DNA from: Cellulomonas sp. APG4
GTDB lineage: Bacteria > Actinomycetota > Actinomycetes > Actinomycetales > Cellulomonadaceae
Assembly: GCF_009996735.1 (NCBI RefSeq)
Contig: NZ_JAACYI010000001.1
Location: 8,522-72,521 of the forward strand
Reading direction: 5' to 3'
DNA length: 64,000 bases
Under the pieces are notes generated by a model. It was given only the letters and a program-made list of their open reading frames with translations. It ran no database searches and had not been told where the DNA came from. The position numbers and the translations under genes are program-made. Shown in pieces: positions 45,417-64,000 of this stretch (position 1 is the stretch's first letter; every line of letters starts with the position of its first letter).

Positions 45417-45484
45417 CCGGCTCGCTCACCCCACACGTGCGGCTCGCTCACCCCCACACGTGCGGCTCGCTCACCCCCACACGT
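45417..45484. repeat. Three tandem copies of a 22-23-bp unit at a gene's 3' end
   Basis: Units at 45417-45438 (one base shorter), 45439-45461 and 45462-45484 share GCGGCTCGCTCACCCCCACA. The third copy contains the stop codon and last codons (His-Val-Trp-Gly) of the DUF6390-like gene, so the tail of the gene was copied twice downstream. Confidence 0.9.
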
Positions 45485-46277
45485 GCGCGAGGGTCTGCGC
45501 GGCGTTGACCGCACGCAGCTGTCGCCGGCTCCACGCGCACAGCGCGGCGAGCCGCCGCGGCTCGACGACCTCGCACACCCAGTCCCAGTGCATCGTGCAC
45601 CAGTCGCCGGGACGCAGGTCGCCCGCGAGGGCACGCCCGAAGGCCGCGACCCGCACCGTCTCGGGCCGCAGCGCCCCCTCGACCACCCGGTGCCCGTCCC
45701 ACTCGAGCGGCCGCGAGCGCACGACGGCGTGCTCGGGCCCCACCGCGAGCACCTCGCCCCAGCGCACGCGACAGCGGTCGAGCACCTCGAGCGGGCGGTC
45801 GACGACGCCCGTGCGCAGCAGCCCGAGCCACGGCGACAGCGCGAGCACGTGCGCGCTGTGGTGCGGCGCCATCGTCGGCAGGGGCGCGGCCATGCGCTCC
45901 CACGCGGGGCCCAGCCGCGGCAGGCGGCTGCGGAACCGCTCCTCGGCCGCGCGCAGCAGCGCGCCGGGCGGCAGGCGCAACAGCTCGTTGCCCACCCAGT
46001 AGGCCTCGACCACGCGCTCGTCGAGCGGGTCGTCGATCCCGTGGGCCCCTGCGATGAGCTCGAGGTAGGGCCAGGCCCCGGCGAACCCGCGCGCGAGCGC
46101 CCGCAGCTCGCCGCCGTCCGGGCCCGACGGAGCCCGAGCCCCTCCGGTCGGCCGGGGGCCCTGCGTCGACGCCACGCTCGACACGCTCTCGAGCAGCTCG
46201 GCCGCGGCGTCGGGGCCGCAGTAGCCGCGCTCGTTGGGTGGGTACGCGTAGCGCGCGAAGAGGACGGGGCCGCTCAC
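45471..46277 (-). CDS. DUF6390-like protein, probable hydrogenase-operon relic
   Basis: 268 residues from a GTG at 46275-46277; starts SGPVLFARYAYPPNERGYCGPDAAAELLE and contains a conserved core LIAGAHGIDDPLDERVVEAYWVGNELL. I recall this family (DUF6390) mostly beside group 3 [NiFe]-hydrogenase genes of actinobacteria, but its function is unknown. No membrane segment or metal motif. It starts 2 bp after the stop of the EamA-type gene. Its only hydrogenase-type neighbour is the fragment at 47054-47167. Confidence 0.65.
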   Translation of the reverse strand: MSGPVLFARYAYPPNERGYCGPDAAAELLESVSSVASTQGPRPTGGARAPSGPDGGELRALARGFAGAWPYLELIAGAHGIDDPLDERVVEAYWVGNELLRLPPGALLRAAEERFRSRLPRLGPAWERMAAPLPTMAPHHSAHVLALSPWLGLLRTGVVDRPLEVLDRCRVRWGEVLAVGPEHAVVRSRPLEWDGHRVVEGALRPETVRVAAFGRALAGDLRPGDWCTMHWDWVCEVVEPRRLAALCAWSRRQLRAVNAAQTLAHVWG

Positions 46278-59708: not shown

Positions 59709-61340
59709 TCAGCGCCGCCTGCCCCCGAGCCACCCGTGCCACACGCGTGCCCCCGCGACCGGTGCGGGGACGTCGTCGTCGGCCGGTGCGCGCGGGGTCG
59801 GTACACCCGGGCCGGGTACCTCGCCCCGGCGCAGCGGCAGCAGCGTGTGCGGTCCGCCGGCGGGCGGGACCCGCCGCAGCAGGTGACGCGCGACGTCGTC
59901 GACGGACTGGGGCTCCTGCGTGAGGATCATCTCGAAGGCGCCCCGGGTGGCGCGCGACCGGCGGGCGACGAGCGCGACGGCGAGGTGCTCGGTCAGGATC
60001 ACCAGGAACGGCTGCTCGGCGAGCGGGTCGCTGCGCGGCACGGCGACGCCGCGGGCGTGCTCGCCCGGGTCCGGCGGGCAGGCCACGCCGAAGGCGACGG
60101 TGAGCACGGCCTTGGAGGTCAGGGGCACCATGTCGGCCAGCCGCGCGCGTCCGGCGGCGCGCCGCTCCTCGTTCTCGGGTCCGTCGCCGAGGCCCATCAG
60201 CACCACGGGGTGCGCGTCCGTCTCGACGGCGTGCGTGTAGAGCAGGCGCGCGATGGTCTCGAGCTCGGCGAGGGTCACCGTCCGGCGCTCATGGCCGGAC
60301 AGGAGGTCGAACGGTGAGGGCACCGCGGGCTCGGGCGTCCAGTCCTGGCGCAGCGGCACCAGGGCGCGCGGCGCACGCACCTCCGCGGGGAGCGGACCGG
60401 GGGTGCCCAGGTGGTGGCCCTGGCCGTAGCGGGCGCCCAGGGCGCGGGCGAGGCGCACGTCGTCGTCGCTCTCGATCCCCTTGACCACGAGCTCCGCCCC
60501 GGCGAGCTCGACGTGCTGGAGCACCGCCGCGACCACGGGCGAGAACAGGCTGCCGTCGCCGCCGCCGAACGCCCGGATGCCGACCTTGACCACGTCGGCC
60601 CGGATCATCGGCAGCACCGACAGGCAGCCGAGGCTGGTGCCGAGGTCGTCGATCGAGATGCCCCAGCCCATGGCGCGGGCGCGCTCGACCGTCGCCACCA
60701 GCCCCGCCGGGTCGGCCGCGAGGGTGCCGTCGTCGACCTCGATCAGCACCCGCAGCTGCGCCTCGGCGTGGCCGACCACGGTCAGCAGGTCCTCGGGGCA
60801 CTCGTCCAGGAGCGAGGCGATCTCGACGTTGACGAACAGCGACGCCGACGGCGGGACGTCGGCCTCGAGGAAGGCCCCGAAGGCGGCCGCCCGGCACACC
60901 CAGTCGAGCTCGGCCGTCCGCCCGAGCGCGGCGGCCCGCGCGAAGAGCTCGCCCGGGCTCTCGAACGCCGTGCCCTCGGGTCCGCGCGCGAGCGCCTCGT
61001 ACGCCACGACCTCGCCCGTGACGAGCTCGACGACGGGCTGGAAGACCGCGGATACCCGCCGCTCGGTGAGGAGCCGGAGGAAGGCCGCGTCACTGGTCTG
61101 CTCGGTGACCTCGTCGCTGGCCTGCTCGGTGACCCCGTCGCGGGTGCCGGCCCCGTCGCTGGTCTGCTCGGTGACCTCGTCGCCGGCCTGCTCGGCAGCC
61201 ACGTCGCTGGTGCCAGTCTCGCCACCGGTCTGCTCGGTGACCTCGTCGCTCGTGCCAGCGGCCCCGTCGCCCGTCCCGGGCCGCTCCGCGCCGGGCGCGC
61301 CGGTGTACCCGCGGAACGGGTCGTCGAGGTCGAGGGGCAC
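59709..61340 (-). CDS. EAL-like plus DICT-domain regulatory protein
   Basis: 543 residues from a GTG at 61338-61340 preceded by AGGAGG (a longer frame would run into the GntR gene). Order: Thr/Glu/Gln-rich repeat region (about residues 25-85), EAL-like domain (about 90-330), DICT-type sensory domain (about 335-490), Pro-rich tail. EAL motifs partly kept: YEALARG, FVNVEIAS, LIEVDDG, SIDDLGTSLGCL, YGQGHHLGTP; but the usual KID is KVG and AEGVE is VKGIE, so phosphodiesterase activity is doubtful and c-di-GMP sensing may remain. It lies 200 bp upstream of the GT2 gene on the same strand. Confidence 0.75.
   Translation of the reverse strand: MPLDLDDPFRGYTGAPGAERPGTGDGAAGTSDEVTEQTGGETGTSDVAAEQAGDEVTEQTSDGAGTRDGVTEQASDEVTEQTSDAAFLRLLTERRVSAVFQPVVELVTGEVVAYEALARGPEGTAFESPGELFARAAALGRTAELDWVCRAAAFGAFLEADVPPSASLFVNVEIASLLDECPEDLLTVVGHAEAQLRVLIEVDDGTLAADPAGLVATVERARAMGWGISIDDLGTSLGCLSVLPMIRADVVKVGIRAFGGGDGSLFSPVVAAVLQHVELAGAELVVKGIESDDDVRLARALGARYGQGHHLGTPGPLPAEVRAPRALVPLRQDWTPEPAVPSPFDLLSGHERRTVTLAELETIARLLYTHAVETDAHPVVLMGLGDGPENEERRAAGRARLADMVPLTSKAVLTVAFGVACPPDPGEHARGVAVPRSDPLAEQPFLVILTEHLAVALVARRSRATRGAFEMILTQEPQSVDDVARHLLRRVPPAGGPHTLLPLRRGEVPGPGVPTPRAPADDDVPAPVAGARVWHGWLGGRRR
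61089..61255. repeat. Imperfect minisatellite in the EAL-DICT gene
   Basis: Several units built on CTGGTCTGCTCGGTGACCTC encode variants of Glu-Val-Thr-Glu-Gln-Thr/Ala-Ser-Asp. It forms the N-terminal low-complexity region and is a likely site of copy-number change. Confidence 0.85.
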
Positions 61341-61434: not shown

Positions 61435-62121
61435 TCAGCCCTGCGCGTGCACCGCCCGACGGCGCACCCCTGCGAGGTGGCTCCGCATCGCGTCGGCGGC
61501 CCCTTCGGCGTCACCGGCCTCGACGGCCGCCAGCACGGCGGCGTGCTCCGCGAGAGCCTCGTCGGCGTCGGTCACCACACCGCCAGGGAAGCGACGGAAC
61601 CGGTGTGCGTGCGCCGCGGTCGTCGCGAGCGCCGCCTCGAGGAACGCGTTGCCCGAGGCGTGCACCAGCACCTGGTGGAACTCGACGTCGGCGCGCAGGT
61701 ACTGCTGGACGTCGTGCGCCGAGGGGCCACGGGGCGCCGTCGCCATCCGTGCGTGCACCTCGCGCAGCCGCACGGCCACCGCGTCGTCGCCCGCGGCGCT
61801 CGCGAGCGCGGCACCGGTGGGCTCGAGCAGCGCACGCACGTCCATGAGCTGGGCGAACTGCTCCTCGGTGAGCAGCGGCGCGACCTGGAACCCGCGCAGG
61901 GGCACGCGCTCGACCAGCCCGCTCGCCGCGGCGCGGCTCAGGGCCTCCCGCACGGGTGTGGGCGAGACGCCCCAGGTGCGCGCGAGGTGGTCGATGCGCA
62001 GCGGGCTCCCGGGGGGCGCGTGACCCTCGAGCAGCAGCTCGACGAGCTGGTCGTGCACCTCGTCGACCAGGGTGCGCCGTTCGACCTTGACACCCGCCGG
62101 GGCCGTTGCTTCACTCGACAC
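61435..62121 (-). CDS. GntR/FadR-family transcriptional regulator
   Basis: 228 residues from the GTG at 62119-62121. Winged helix-turn-helix (LVDEVHDQLVELLLEG, LARTWGVSPTPVREALSRAAASGLVERVPLRG) followed by an all-helical FCD domain with likely metal ligands in ADVEFHQVLVHASGNAFLE and later histidines. Divergent from the isomerase gene, which it probably controls; effector likely a small organic acid. A TTG at 62151 would add ten residues but would overlap the opposing start codon. Confidence 0.88.
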   Translation of the reverse strand: MSSEATAPAGVKVERRTLVDEVHDQLVELLLEGHAPPGSPLRIDHLARTWGVSPTPVREALSRAAASGLVERVPLRGFQVAPLLTEEQFAQLMDVRALLEPTGAALASAAGDDAVAVRLREVHARMATAPRGPSAHDVQQYLRADVEFHQVLVHASGNAFLEAALATTAAHAHRFRRFPGGVVTDADEALAEHAAVLAAVEAGDAEGAADAMRSHLAGVRRRAVHAQG

Positions 62122-62150
62122 GAACGGAATCGTATAGGAAATAGAGGCCA
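62122..62150. promoter_or_regulatory. Compact divergent promoter of the GntR and isomerase genes
   Basis: Only about 30 bp separate the two starts. CGTATAGGAAATAGA is AT-rich; TATAGG at 62132-62137 could serve as -10 for the plus gene and TATACG (complement of the same island) for the minus gene. A GntR operator would have to overlap both. Confidence 0.5.
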
Positions 62151-63137
62151 ATGGTGGCTCCCCTGCCCTCGTCCGACACCCGTACCGAGGCCCCGTGGGG
62201 CAGTACCGACTGGCCGGTGGCGGCGGCGATGCTCCCGTTCCCGGCGAGCCAGGACGCGTCCGCGCAGACCTGGCTCGCCCAGCTCGCCGAGGTGGCCTAC
62301 GAGGGCTTCACCGAGGTCGACCTGACGGACTCCTGGGTGCGCGTGGGCGACCTCGCGCCGTCGCGGCTCACCGAGCTCGCCGACGTGCTGGGCCGTGCGG
62401 GGCTGAGGGCCGAGGCGGTCTCAGCGATCCGGCGCAGCGTCATCGACCCCGAGCACGGCGCCGAGAACCTCGCCTACTCGCACCGCGTGATCGACGCCGC
62501 GGCGAGCCTCGGCTGCTCGGTGGTGAGCGTGGGTCTGCACCGGCCACTGCTCCCGGAGCAGCAGCGGGTGCTGTGGTTCTGGACGGTCGACGGCCCGCGC
62601 GACGACGACTCGACGGAGACCTGGCGGCTCGCGGTCGCCCGGCTGCGCGAGCTGGGTGAGCACGCGGCCGACGTCGGGCTCGACCTCTCGCTCGAGATGT
62701 ACGAGGACACCCTGCTGGGCTCGTCGGCCTCGGCCGTGCGCCTGGTCGAGGACATCGCGCACCCGGCCGTGGGTCTCAACCCGGACCTGGGCAACCTGTT
62801 CCGCCTGCACCGCGACGTCGAGGACTTCCAGCAGGCCGTCGCTGCGTGCCTGCCCGTCTCGAACTACTGGCACGTCAAGAGCTACCACCGCGACCACGAC
62901 CCGCGCACCGGTGCCGTGACCGCGGTCCCGGCGCCCATGGCGCACGGGTCGGTCAACTACCGCCAGGCGATCCGCACCGCGCTGGAGGTCGGCTTCGCCG
63001 GTCCCTTCTGCGTCGAGCACTACGGCGGCGACGGACTGGCGGTGATGGCCGAGAACCACCGCTACCTGCGCCGGCTGCTCGCCGTCGCGACGGGTGAGGT
63101 CGCACGCGAGGCGAGCACACGCGGGGTGACCCCGTGA
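62151..63137 (+). CDS. Sugar phosphate isomerase/epimerase-like TIM-barrel protein
   Basis: 328 residues of the AP endonuclease 2/xylose isomerase-like fold. Metal-site segments: VGLHRPLLP, LSLEMYEDTLLG (Glu), GLNPDLGNLF (Asp), YWHVKSYHRDHD (His) and GPFCVEHYGGDG (Glu). With a beta-hydroxyacid dehydrogenase shortly downstream and a GntR regulator upstream, it could act like hydroxypyruvate or 2-oxo-tetronate isomerase. ATG at 62151; a GTG one codon later has better spacing from AGAGG. Confidence 0.85.
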   Translation: MVAPLPSSDTRTEAPWGSTDWPVAAAMLPFPASQDASAQTWLAQLAEVAYEGFTEVDLTDSWVRVGDLAPSRLTELADVLGRAGLRAEAVSAIRRSVIDPEHGAENLAYSHRVIDAAASLGCSVVSVGLHRPLLPEQQRVLWFWTVDGPRDDDSTETWRLAVARLRELGEHAADVGLDLSLEMYEDTLLGSSASAVRLVEDIAHPAVGLNPDLGNLFRLHRDVEDFQQAVAACLPVSNYWHVKSYHRDHDPRTGAVTAVPAPMAHGSVNYRQAIRTALEVGFAGPFCVEHYGGDGLAVMAENHRYLRRLLAVATGEVAREASTRGVTP

Positions 63138-63223
63138 CCGCCCGCACCGCCATCAGGGCGGCCGGGAACACCCCCGCTCGCACCACGACCACGACCACGA
63201 CCACGACAGAGGTGACCCCGTGA
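63134..63223 (+). CDS. 29-residue poly-threonine mini-ORF, copy 1
   Basis: GTG overlapping the isomerase stop by 4 bp; translation MTARTAIRAAGNTPAR, nine threonines, EVTP, stop. Its stop overlaps the next GTG. It resembles no known family. It could be a coupled leader peptide, or a side effect of repeat expansion. Confidence 0.4.
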   Translation: MTARTAIRAAGNTPARTTTTTTTTTEVTP

Positions 63224-63309
63224 TCGCCCGCACCACCGCCACGGCGGCCCTGAGCGCCCCCGCACGCACCACGACCACGACCACGACCACGACAGAGGTG
63301 ACCCGGTGA
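63220..63309 (+). CDS. 29-residue poly-threonine mini-ORF, copy 2
   Basis: Starts GTG overlapping copy 1's stop; translation MIARTTATAALSAPAR, nine threonines, EVTR, stop overlapping the dehydrogenase GTG at 63306. An in-frame GAGGTG before each junction acts as a ribosome site. Same length as copy 1, with several substitutions in the first half. Confidence 0.4.
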   Translation: MIARTTATAALSAPARTTTTTTTTTEVTR

Positions 63310-64000
63310 TCGCCGTCCTCGGCCTCGGCGCCATGGGACTGCCCATGGCCACCCACCTCGCGCGCACGTTCGAGGTCCGCGCGTTCGACGTCGCCGCGGC
63401 GCGGCTCGACCTCGCGGCCGAGGCCGGCGTCGCCGGGGCCCTCTCGCCGGTCGAGGCCGCACGCGGAGCCGACGTCGTGCTCGTGGGCGTCCGCGACGCC
63501 GCTCAGCTCGAGCAGGCGCTCTTCGCCGACGACGGCGCGGTGCACGGTCTCGCCGCGGGAGCGGTCGTGGTGCTGACGTCGACCGTCGGCGCCCCGGCCG
63601 CGCAGTCCGCGGCCGGCCGCCTCGCCGTCCACGGCGTCCACCTGGTCGACGCCCCGGTGAGCGGGGGTCCGGTGCGCGCCGGCACGGGCGACCTGCTGAT
63701 CATGGTGGGCGCGCCCGACGACGCGCTCGGGCTCGCCCGCCCGGTGCTCGAGGAGCTGTCCTCGACCCTCGCGGTCGTGGGACCGCGCGTGGGCGACGGC
63801 CAGGTGCTCAAGACCGTCAACCAGCTGCTGTGCGGGATCCACACCGCGGCGGCCGCCGAGGCGCTCGCCCTCGCGCACGCGCTGGGGCTCGACCTCGACG
63901 CGACCCTCGACGTGCTCGGTGCCGGCGCGGCCGCCTCGTTCATGCTCGCCGACCGCGGCCCACGCATCGCGGCGCGCCTCACGGGGCGCGAGCCCGAGCT
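63306..64000 (+). CDS. Beta-hydroxyacid dehydrogenase (tartronate-semialdehyde reductase / 3-hydroxyisobutyrate dehydrogenase family), 3' end cut
   Basis: First 231 codons are visible, and the frame is open at the right edge. Rossmann motif IAVLGLGAMGLPMATHLA, substrate motif DAPVSGGPVRAGTGDL (115-130) and catalytic Lys169 in LKTVNQLLCG. NAD(P)H-dependent. Next to an isomerase-like gene and GntR regulator this suggests a small sugar-acid pathway (LtnD/GarR-like), which is inference. Translationally coupled to the preceding mini-ORF. Confidence 0.88.
   Translation, partial: MIAVLGLGAMGLPMATHLARTFEVRAFDVAAARLDLAAEAGVAGALSPVEAARGADVVLVGVRDAAQLEQALFADDGAVHGLAAGAVVVLTSTVGAPAAQSAAGRLAVHGVHLVDAPVSGGPVRAGTGDLLIMVGAPDDALGLARPVLEELSSTLAVVGPRVGDGQVLKTVNQLLCGIHTAAAAEALALAHALGLDLDATLDVLGAGAAASFMLADRGPRIAARLTGREPE

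Follow-up and report, generated by a model that had tools for sequence, protein, structure and literature searches.

The mycobacterial interspersed repetitive units (MIRUs), whose description is reportedly due to Supply et al. in 1997, are among the closest described counterparts of the locus considered here. Passages of two sources describe them as units of 40-100 bp that are arranged in tandem at some loci (PMC12548453, PMC2734929), and the first of these adds that MIRUs insert at start codons, carry an inner open reading frame (ORF) coupled at -4 nt and probably affect the gene little (PMC12548453). Part of the second is devoted to the rnc-fpg MIRU-VNTR locus, which measures 279-358 bp in the listed members of the M. 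tuberculosis complex and 1-54 bp in the other mycobacteria listed, and at which the fpg mRNA level rises modestly with repeat length, the effect being one on mRNA (PMC2734929). A second relevant system is termination-reinitiation at -4 nt overlaps, for which sections of Huber et al. 2023 report that almost no coupling was left at a gap of about 20 nt in six gene pairs of E. coli and Haloferax, that the last 15 nt of the upstream gene were enough for coupling in two E. coli pairs, and that E. coli hyfH-hyfI shows 10-30% new initiation and 60% re-initiation despite a 14-nt gap (PMC10666635). An in-vitro assay, as cited in a passage of a review, found coupling to be equal at +1 and +39 nt (PMC12548453). 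Finally, short coupled leader or upstream ORFs, in which a short frame ends at the start of a gene, are described in parts of PMC4833913 and PMC12548453, the former giving a distance peak of 10-11 bp for the leader ORFs of Actinobacteria.

The present locus lies on a stretch of 64,000 nucleotides (hereafter the window, in whose coordinates all positions are given) from Cellulomonas sp. APG4, the genome of which is a 3.74 Mb draft in 48 contigs; we found no publication on the locus among the top-ranked literature results. On the plus strand, a gene for a 328-aa xylose-isomerase-like TIM barrel enzyme of the isomerase/epimerase type (62151..63137; Pfam PF01261, E 1.1e-23), to which the epimerase models of NCBIfam match weakly and below cut-off, precedes a gene for a dehydrogenase of the 3-hydroxyisobutyrate or L-threonate dehydrogenase kind (63306..64000, running past the window end; Pfam PF03446 and PF14833). 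The latter protein is 295 aa long in locus L130, and its best NCBIfam match is the L-threonate dehydrogenase model NF043037, at 221 bits and under the cut-off of 350. A GntR/FCD-family regulator gene (61435..62151, minus strand; Pfam PF00392 and PF07729) is divergent from the operon, while 3' of the dehydrogenase we observed a dihydroxyacetone-kinase-family gene and an RpiB-family gene, which reaches the cut-off of the NCBIfam RPI_actino model and matches the D-erythrulose-4-phosphate isomerase model below cut-off. Based on these downstream kinase- and RpiB-family genes, together with the threonate-dehydrogenase-like match (below cut-off as it is), the gene set suggests a role in the catabolism of a C4 sugar or sugar acid.

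Between the two enzyme genes lies an insert of 172 nt, composed of two 86-bp units (63134..63219 and 63220..63305, plus strand) and evident both from comparison of the units and from TRF, which reports a tandem repeat at 63125-63314 with a period of 86, 2.2 copies, 89% matches and a score of 303, the highest among the 135 TRF rows for the window. Two other tandem repeats of the window are a 66-bp one at 61083-61250 (2.5 copies, score 245), located inside a neighbouring 601-aa minus-strand ORF in which it encodes a repetitive EVTEQ-type protein stretch, and a 23-bp one at 45418-45487 (3.1 copies, 97% matches, score 133). Each 86-bp unit gives rise to a 29-aa frame with a GTG start, namely mini-ORF 1 (63134..63223, plus strand; MTARTAIRAAGNTPARTTTTTTTTTEVTP) and mini-ORF 2 (63220..63309, plus strand; MIARTTATAALSAPARTTTTTTTTTEVTR). 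The frames are joined to each other and to the flanking genes by three plus-strand 4-nt GTGA stop-start links, each accompanied by a Shine-Dalgarno-like sequence: at junction 1 (GGGGTGACCCCGTGA, 63123..63137) the TGA of the isomerase overlaps the GTG of mini-ORF 1, at junction 2 (GAGGTGACCCCGTGA, 63209..63223) the two mini-ORFs overlap, and at junction 3 (GAGGTGACCCGGTGA, 63295..63309) the stop of mini-ORF 2 overlaps GTG 63306, the sole ATG, GTG or TTG in the dehydrogenase frame from the preceding stop to the conserved part. With an assumed 16S tail sequence, the Shine-Dalgarno duplexes are predicted at -10.7 kcal/mol for mini-ORF 1 and at -11.5 kcal/mol for both mini-ORF 2 and the dehydrogenase, that of the isomerase itself being weaker at -7.9 kcal/mol. 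A preliminary description of this DNA had already recognized the two tandem 86-bp units between the enzyme genes, which the sequence, the ORFs and TRF all bear out, and had placed a GTG on each previous stop and a ribosome site plus GTGA at each end, which holds at every link. Its view that the overlaps alone hold the chain open is likewise sound as geometry; the nine threonines that it assigned to each 29-residue peptide correspond to the length of the run, the total being 13 in each.

In the size of its units, their tandem layout and the presence of inner short ORFs overlapping the neighbouring genes at -4 nt, the locus resembles the MIRUs; it differs from them in being found at one place in its own genome and in having a hexamer tract inside, and the likeness described here is one of layout. 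The GTGA overlaps with their upstream Shine-Dalgarno-like sequences are comparable to the -4 nt pairs presented in sections of Huber et al. 2023 (PMC10666635), although here two extra short frames stand between the enzyme genes. As in the leader ORFs treated in parts of PMC4833913 and PMC12548453, a short frame ends at the start of a gene; unlike these, the present frames are within an operon, in tandem, overlapping, and behind a full gene. Judged by its sequence, the locus is real, lineage-specific and present at a single place, and presumably a MIRU-like relay. We propose, with a probability of roughly 60%, that the mini-ORFs are tandem copies of a duplicated junction that act as passive ribosome relays and have no sensing role. 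The ancestral isomerase and dehydrogenase genes most likely shared a direct four-base overlap, like those of 15 of 20 relatives; a segment across this overlap would have been duplicated or acquired and then expanded, with an (ACCACG)n microsatellite inside it, every copy presumably contributing a further Shine-Dalgarno sequence as well as a GTG start and a TGA stop within a four-base overlap. A ribosome leaving the isomerase would accordingly restart at mini-ORF 1, then at mini-ORF 2 and then at the dehydrogenase, and the relay would preserve the coupling of the dehydrogenase despite 172 nt of inserted sequence, which by themselves would break it, with some of the ribosomes being lost at every step. 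The threonine run would be a coding by-product of the hexamer, whose gain or loss would keep the frame. Of the four-base re-initiation chain envisaged in the preliminary description, the frames and GTGA overlaps stand as geometry, and the passage of ribosomes along it is plausible in light of the published coupling data.

The comparison with relatives drew on three sets of loci. Among 22 of them (L003-L024) the flank held an adjacent dehydrogenase only in L003 and L004; among 80 contig loci a dehydrogenase was adjacent in 17, non-adjacent in one (L102) and absent at threshold within the flanks in 62; and among 28 (L185-L212) an isomerase was adjacent in four, non-adjacent in L198 and absent from the flank in 23. 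L106 and L107 coincide with L003 and L004, while L026, L186 and L187 were removed because they duplicate L003, L027 and L032, and self loci were left out; L039/L040 and L031/L032 were kept despite sharing 94% and 49% of their 31-base words, respectively. No isomerase was present in the flanks of L108 and L131. The latter, from a genome of the same genus (G017), has a 65% identical dehydrogenase and no isomerase within 12 kb, on which basis the gene pair appears to be patchy in the genus.

A mini-ORF is absent from all 20 distinct non-self loci in which the isomerase and dehydrogenase are adjacent, and the insert hence appears to be specific to the source lineage, as far as sampled. The junction in these relatives is a 4-nt ATGA or GTGA overlap in 15, a 1-nt overlap in one (L034) and a gap in four (12 nt in L037 and 2 nt in L039, L040 and L042). 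The preliminary description had named two observations that would together tell against its interpretation, direct overlap of the genes in relatives and mini-ORFs devoid of ribosome footprints; the first is what we see in most relatives (15/20). The best named relatives of the isomerase come from Cellulomonas marina (79%), an Actinomycetales MAG, Georgenia and other Cellulomonas, and because even the nearest are only about 73-79% identical in this protein, the insertion event cannot be dated. As to the origin of the units, unit 1 opens with 12 bases (GTGACCGCCCGC) that also begin the dehydrogenase gene of Cellulomonas marina (L025, MTARVAVLG), and 13 bases at junction 3 (GGTGACCCGGTGA) equal the isomerase end in L003, matches that would fit an origin by junction duplication. 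Beyond the junction motifs, similarity of unit 1 to the isomerase tail and to the 5' end of the dehydrogenase is insignificant, with 347 and 310 of 500 shuffles, respectively, scoring as well, and we accordingly rejected the unit as a wider homologue of either. Since the wider similarity does not exceed that of shuffles, it is on the short matches that junction duplication rests, and a foreign unit may instead have inserted at the locus.

The main rival to the relay, which we regard as unlikely yet deserving of serious attention, is that the insertion is neutral, with the dehydrogenase initiating anew at its own Shine-Dalgarno sequence and the chain being an unselected by-product of duplication. 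The pairing predicted 5' of the dehydrogenase is strong, and such a Shine-Dalgarno sequence could allow an independent start. Furthermore, while chance does not account for the repeat itself, an unbroken chain says little in favour of design, because 79% of the plus-strand positions of the window are open for 28 codons and because 6397 of 19400 (33%) tandem duplications simulated across the 4-nt overlaps of the window yield a relay chain, a one-third outcome that favours the neutral explanation. Another 6059 (31%) yield an in-frame extension instead. In this simulation, which used duplications of 40-120 bp and let any mechanically open frame of 100 codons or more stand in for a gene, the relay arises by construction, because a length with remainder 2 (mod 3) joins the downstream start to the upstream end, and both joined parts being open, the new short frame is therefore open as well. 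A scan of both strands, with flanking open frames of at least 100 codons that were taken mechanically and not as proven genes, recovered one or two short frames RTGA-linked between open frames at 11 further sites of the window (7 plus, 4 minus); the present chain is outside the reach of that scan, since its dehydrogenase frame extends beyond the end of the window.

The differences between the two units bear on the same question. They number 11 among 86 positions, 10 of them within the first 45 bases, whereas the last 41 bases, comprising the tract and the Shine-Dalgarno stretch, are equal in both units save for the final base, a sameness that may reflect slippage or repair between the copies, or constraint on the junction. 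By codon position, 10 of the differences fall at position 1 or 2 and one at position 3 (p = 0.075 for at most one difference at position 3 given an even spread), and the codon-position pattern of the two units compared carries no sign of purifying selection on the peptides, as the neutral explanation would have it. This pattern would suit a passive relay, but equally suits no function. Against a neutral insertion, however, the Shine-Dalgarno sequence and GTGA are intact at all three junctions despite the 11 unit differences, and the two genes overlap in most of the relatives compared.

An extension of the proposed relay, to which we attach little confidence, is that the units constitute a copy-number-tunable translational relay, serving as a heritable dial on the ratio of isomerase to dehydrogenase. 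Each 86-bp unit would be self-contained, the gain or loss of a unit would alter the number of re-initiation steps, and slippage of the hexamer would never break the frame.

We consider it improbable that a mobile MIRU-type element inserted at the locus and was then duplicated in place. The size, tandem layout and overlaps of the units do agree with the MIRUs as portrayed in passages of PMC2734929 and PMC12548453, and a junction pattern allowing up to 3 mismatches, which occurs in 11 of 19 genus genomes, was recovered at 12 places outside the own genome, always with 2-3 mismatches, compared to one place for the reversed control. However, none of these 12 places has a short frame RTGA-linked at both ends and none is near a hexamer tract. 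Within the own genome the same pattern identifies just the two known places, and in place of the dispersal typical of MIRUs we found a single match at E 0.001 (at E 0.01 there are three, one of which is among the matches listed). A tract-plus-junction pattern and a paired-junction pattern are each confined, among 220 family genomes, to the own one, without any match of the reversed control for the former or any control match for the latter. At E 0.01, matches to a 190-bp query are present in 211 of 221 family genomes, with the best three candidates per genome scored; the matches listed are for the most part short and lie on the hexamer tract, and the 11 query-matched loci inspected contain ACCACG tracts. 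A dispersed element in the own genus or family was rejected on these grounds, the family matches listed being mostly to the hexamer tract and the layout patterns occurring only in the own genome.

In a class-wide sample the paired-junction pattern occurs in 4 of 394 genomes and its reversed control in 2 of 394, and a match to it taken alone is consequently hardly informative. Besides the own genome, the pattern is present in two genomes of a single other genus (G905 and G791) and in G846, where it does not form a chain. In the genus of G905, which in our judgement is one other than mycobacterium, a 105-base query from G905 matches 39 of 49 genomes (19 times in G905 and as many as 30 times in one genome), some places being 80 bp apart in tandem. 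At the corresponding loci (L214:1431-1591, L215 and L218-L236), 15 of 21 distinct ones have a frame of 27 or 28 aa that is RTGA-linked (ATGA or GTGA) to a downstream frame of at least 115 aa; no such chain is seen at the element in L219, L220, L223, L227, L231 and L236, and away from the element the chain scan picks up unrelated chains in these loci as well. The downstream frames mostly vary by place, being common to L222 and L228 and to L215 and L234. An alignment of 14 peptides from 11 plus-strand loci revealed an invariant MSERQR, one invariant Y and one invariant E, the consensus of the 27-aa frame being MSERQRVNxxxVMPAPxYRALSTEVTA, and in a class-wide sample of 178 genomes the peptide profile matches 3, all from the genus of G905. 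To go by these features, the 80-bp element looks like a MIRU-like dispersed relay element. We rejected the 86-bp unit as its homologue, the only match being 11 bases of Shine-Dalgarno sequence with one mismatch, and the profile of the 80-bp element has no match in the own genome at E 1e-4. Publications on this element were not found among the top-ranked literature results, and it merits study of its own.

The threonine-rich character of the peptides prompts comparison to the amino-acid attenuators. The E. coli thr leader, an example of these, likewise has a short frame with a run of threonine codons. In part of a comparison of actinobacterial attenuators, threonine is included among the attenuator-controlled pathways, in other species (PMC1262725). 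In the present locus, two runs of nine threonine codons stand just upstream of the dehydrogenase, and the preliminary description had consequently suggested a brake in which scarcity of charged threonine tRNA would stall ribosomes and lower dehydrogenase expression. We hold this threonine-sensing interpretation to be very unlikely. Unlike in amino-acid attenuators, neither a terminator nor alternative hairpins were found after the short frames, there being no terminator-like and no promoter-like sites in 62100-64000, no Rfam match at E up to 1 in 61900-64000 and no fold more stable than that of shuffles (z -0.12). The pathway is also unrelated, none of the five genes examined (for the regulator and the isomerase-like, dehydrogenase, kinase-like and RpiB-like proteins) belonging to threonine synthesis. 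Moreover, the frames are positioned inside the operon, behind a full enzyme gene, and the threonine run is missing in the 20 relatives compared.

The tract behind the run tells against a sensor as well, in that it codes for other residues elsewhere. In unit 1 it is (ACCACG)n (63182..63207, plus strand; TRF period 6, 4.3 copies, 100%), which codes for most of the threonine run, and in unit 2 the same hexamer recurs in another register as (CACGAC)n (63263..63293, plus strand; period 6, 5.0 copies, 96%). (ACCACG)4 is present in 34 of 220 family genomes, the own included, and its reversed control in 38 of 220; as the two are about equally common, GC-rich hexamer tracts appear to be general in the family, and the tract as a special signal was ruled out. 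In the longest sense frame at 19 loci the tract reads as HD in 10, PR in 6 and TT in 3, the antisense frame being longer still at some of them. In one family genome (L135, near 1490-1530) an ACCACG tract follows an ATG by a few codons, resulting in a would-be poly-threonine N-terminus; growth of the hexamer near a gene start may be tolerated elsewhere too. The threonine-rich peptides seem to be a side effect of a simple DNA repeat, not a threonine sensor. Lastly, an assembly or copy-number error, which a short tandem repeat in a draft of 48 contigs might invite, is scarcely credible, as the 11 differing positions make an invented copy unlikely, although extra copies could still exist.

The relay of duplicated junctions that we favour has implications beyond this operon. 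Since duplication over a GTGA overlap leaves the chain open by construction in about one third of cases, relay units may conceivably arise repeatedly in Actinobacteria. By such duplication, short tandem repeats would have a simple way of entering operons with tight coupling while the downstream gene stays connected, and relays of the MIRU-like kind could have started in this manner. If copy number indeed tunes the ratio of the two enzymes, the locus would provide a clean natural system in which to measure the cost of each re-initiation step.
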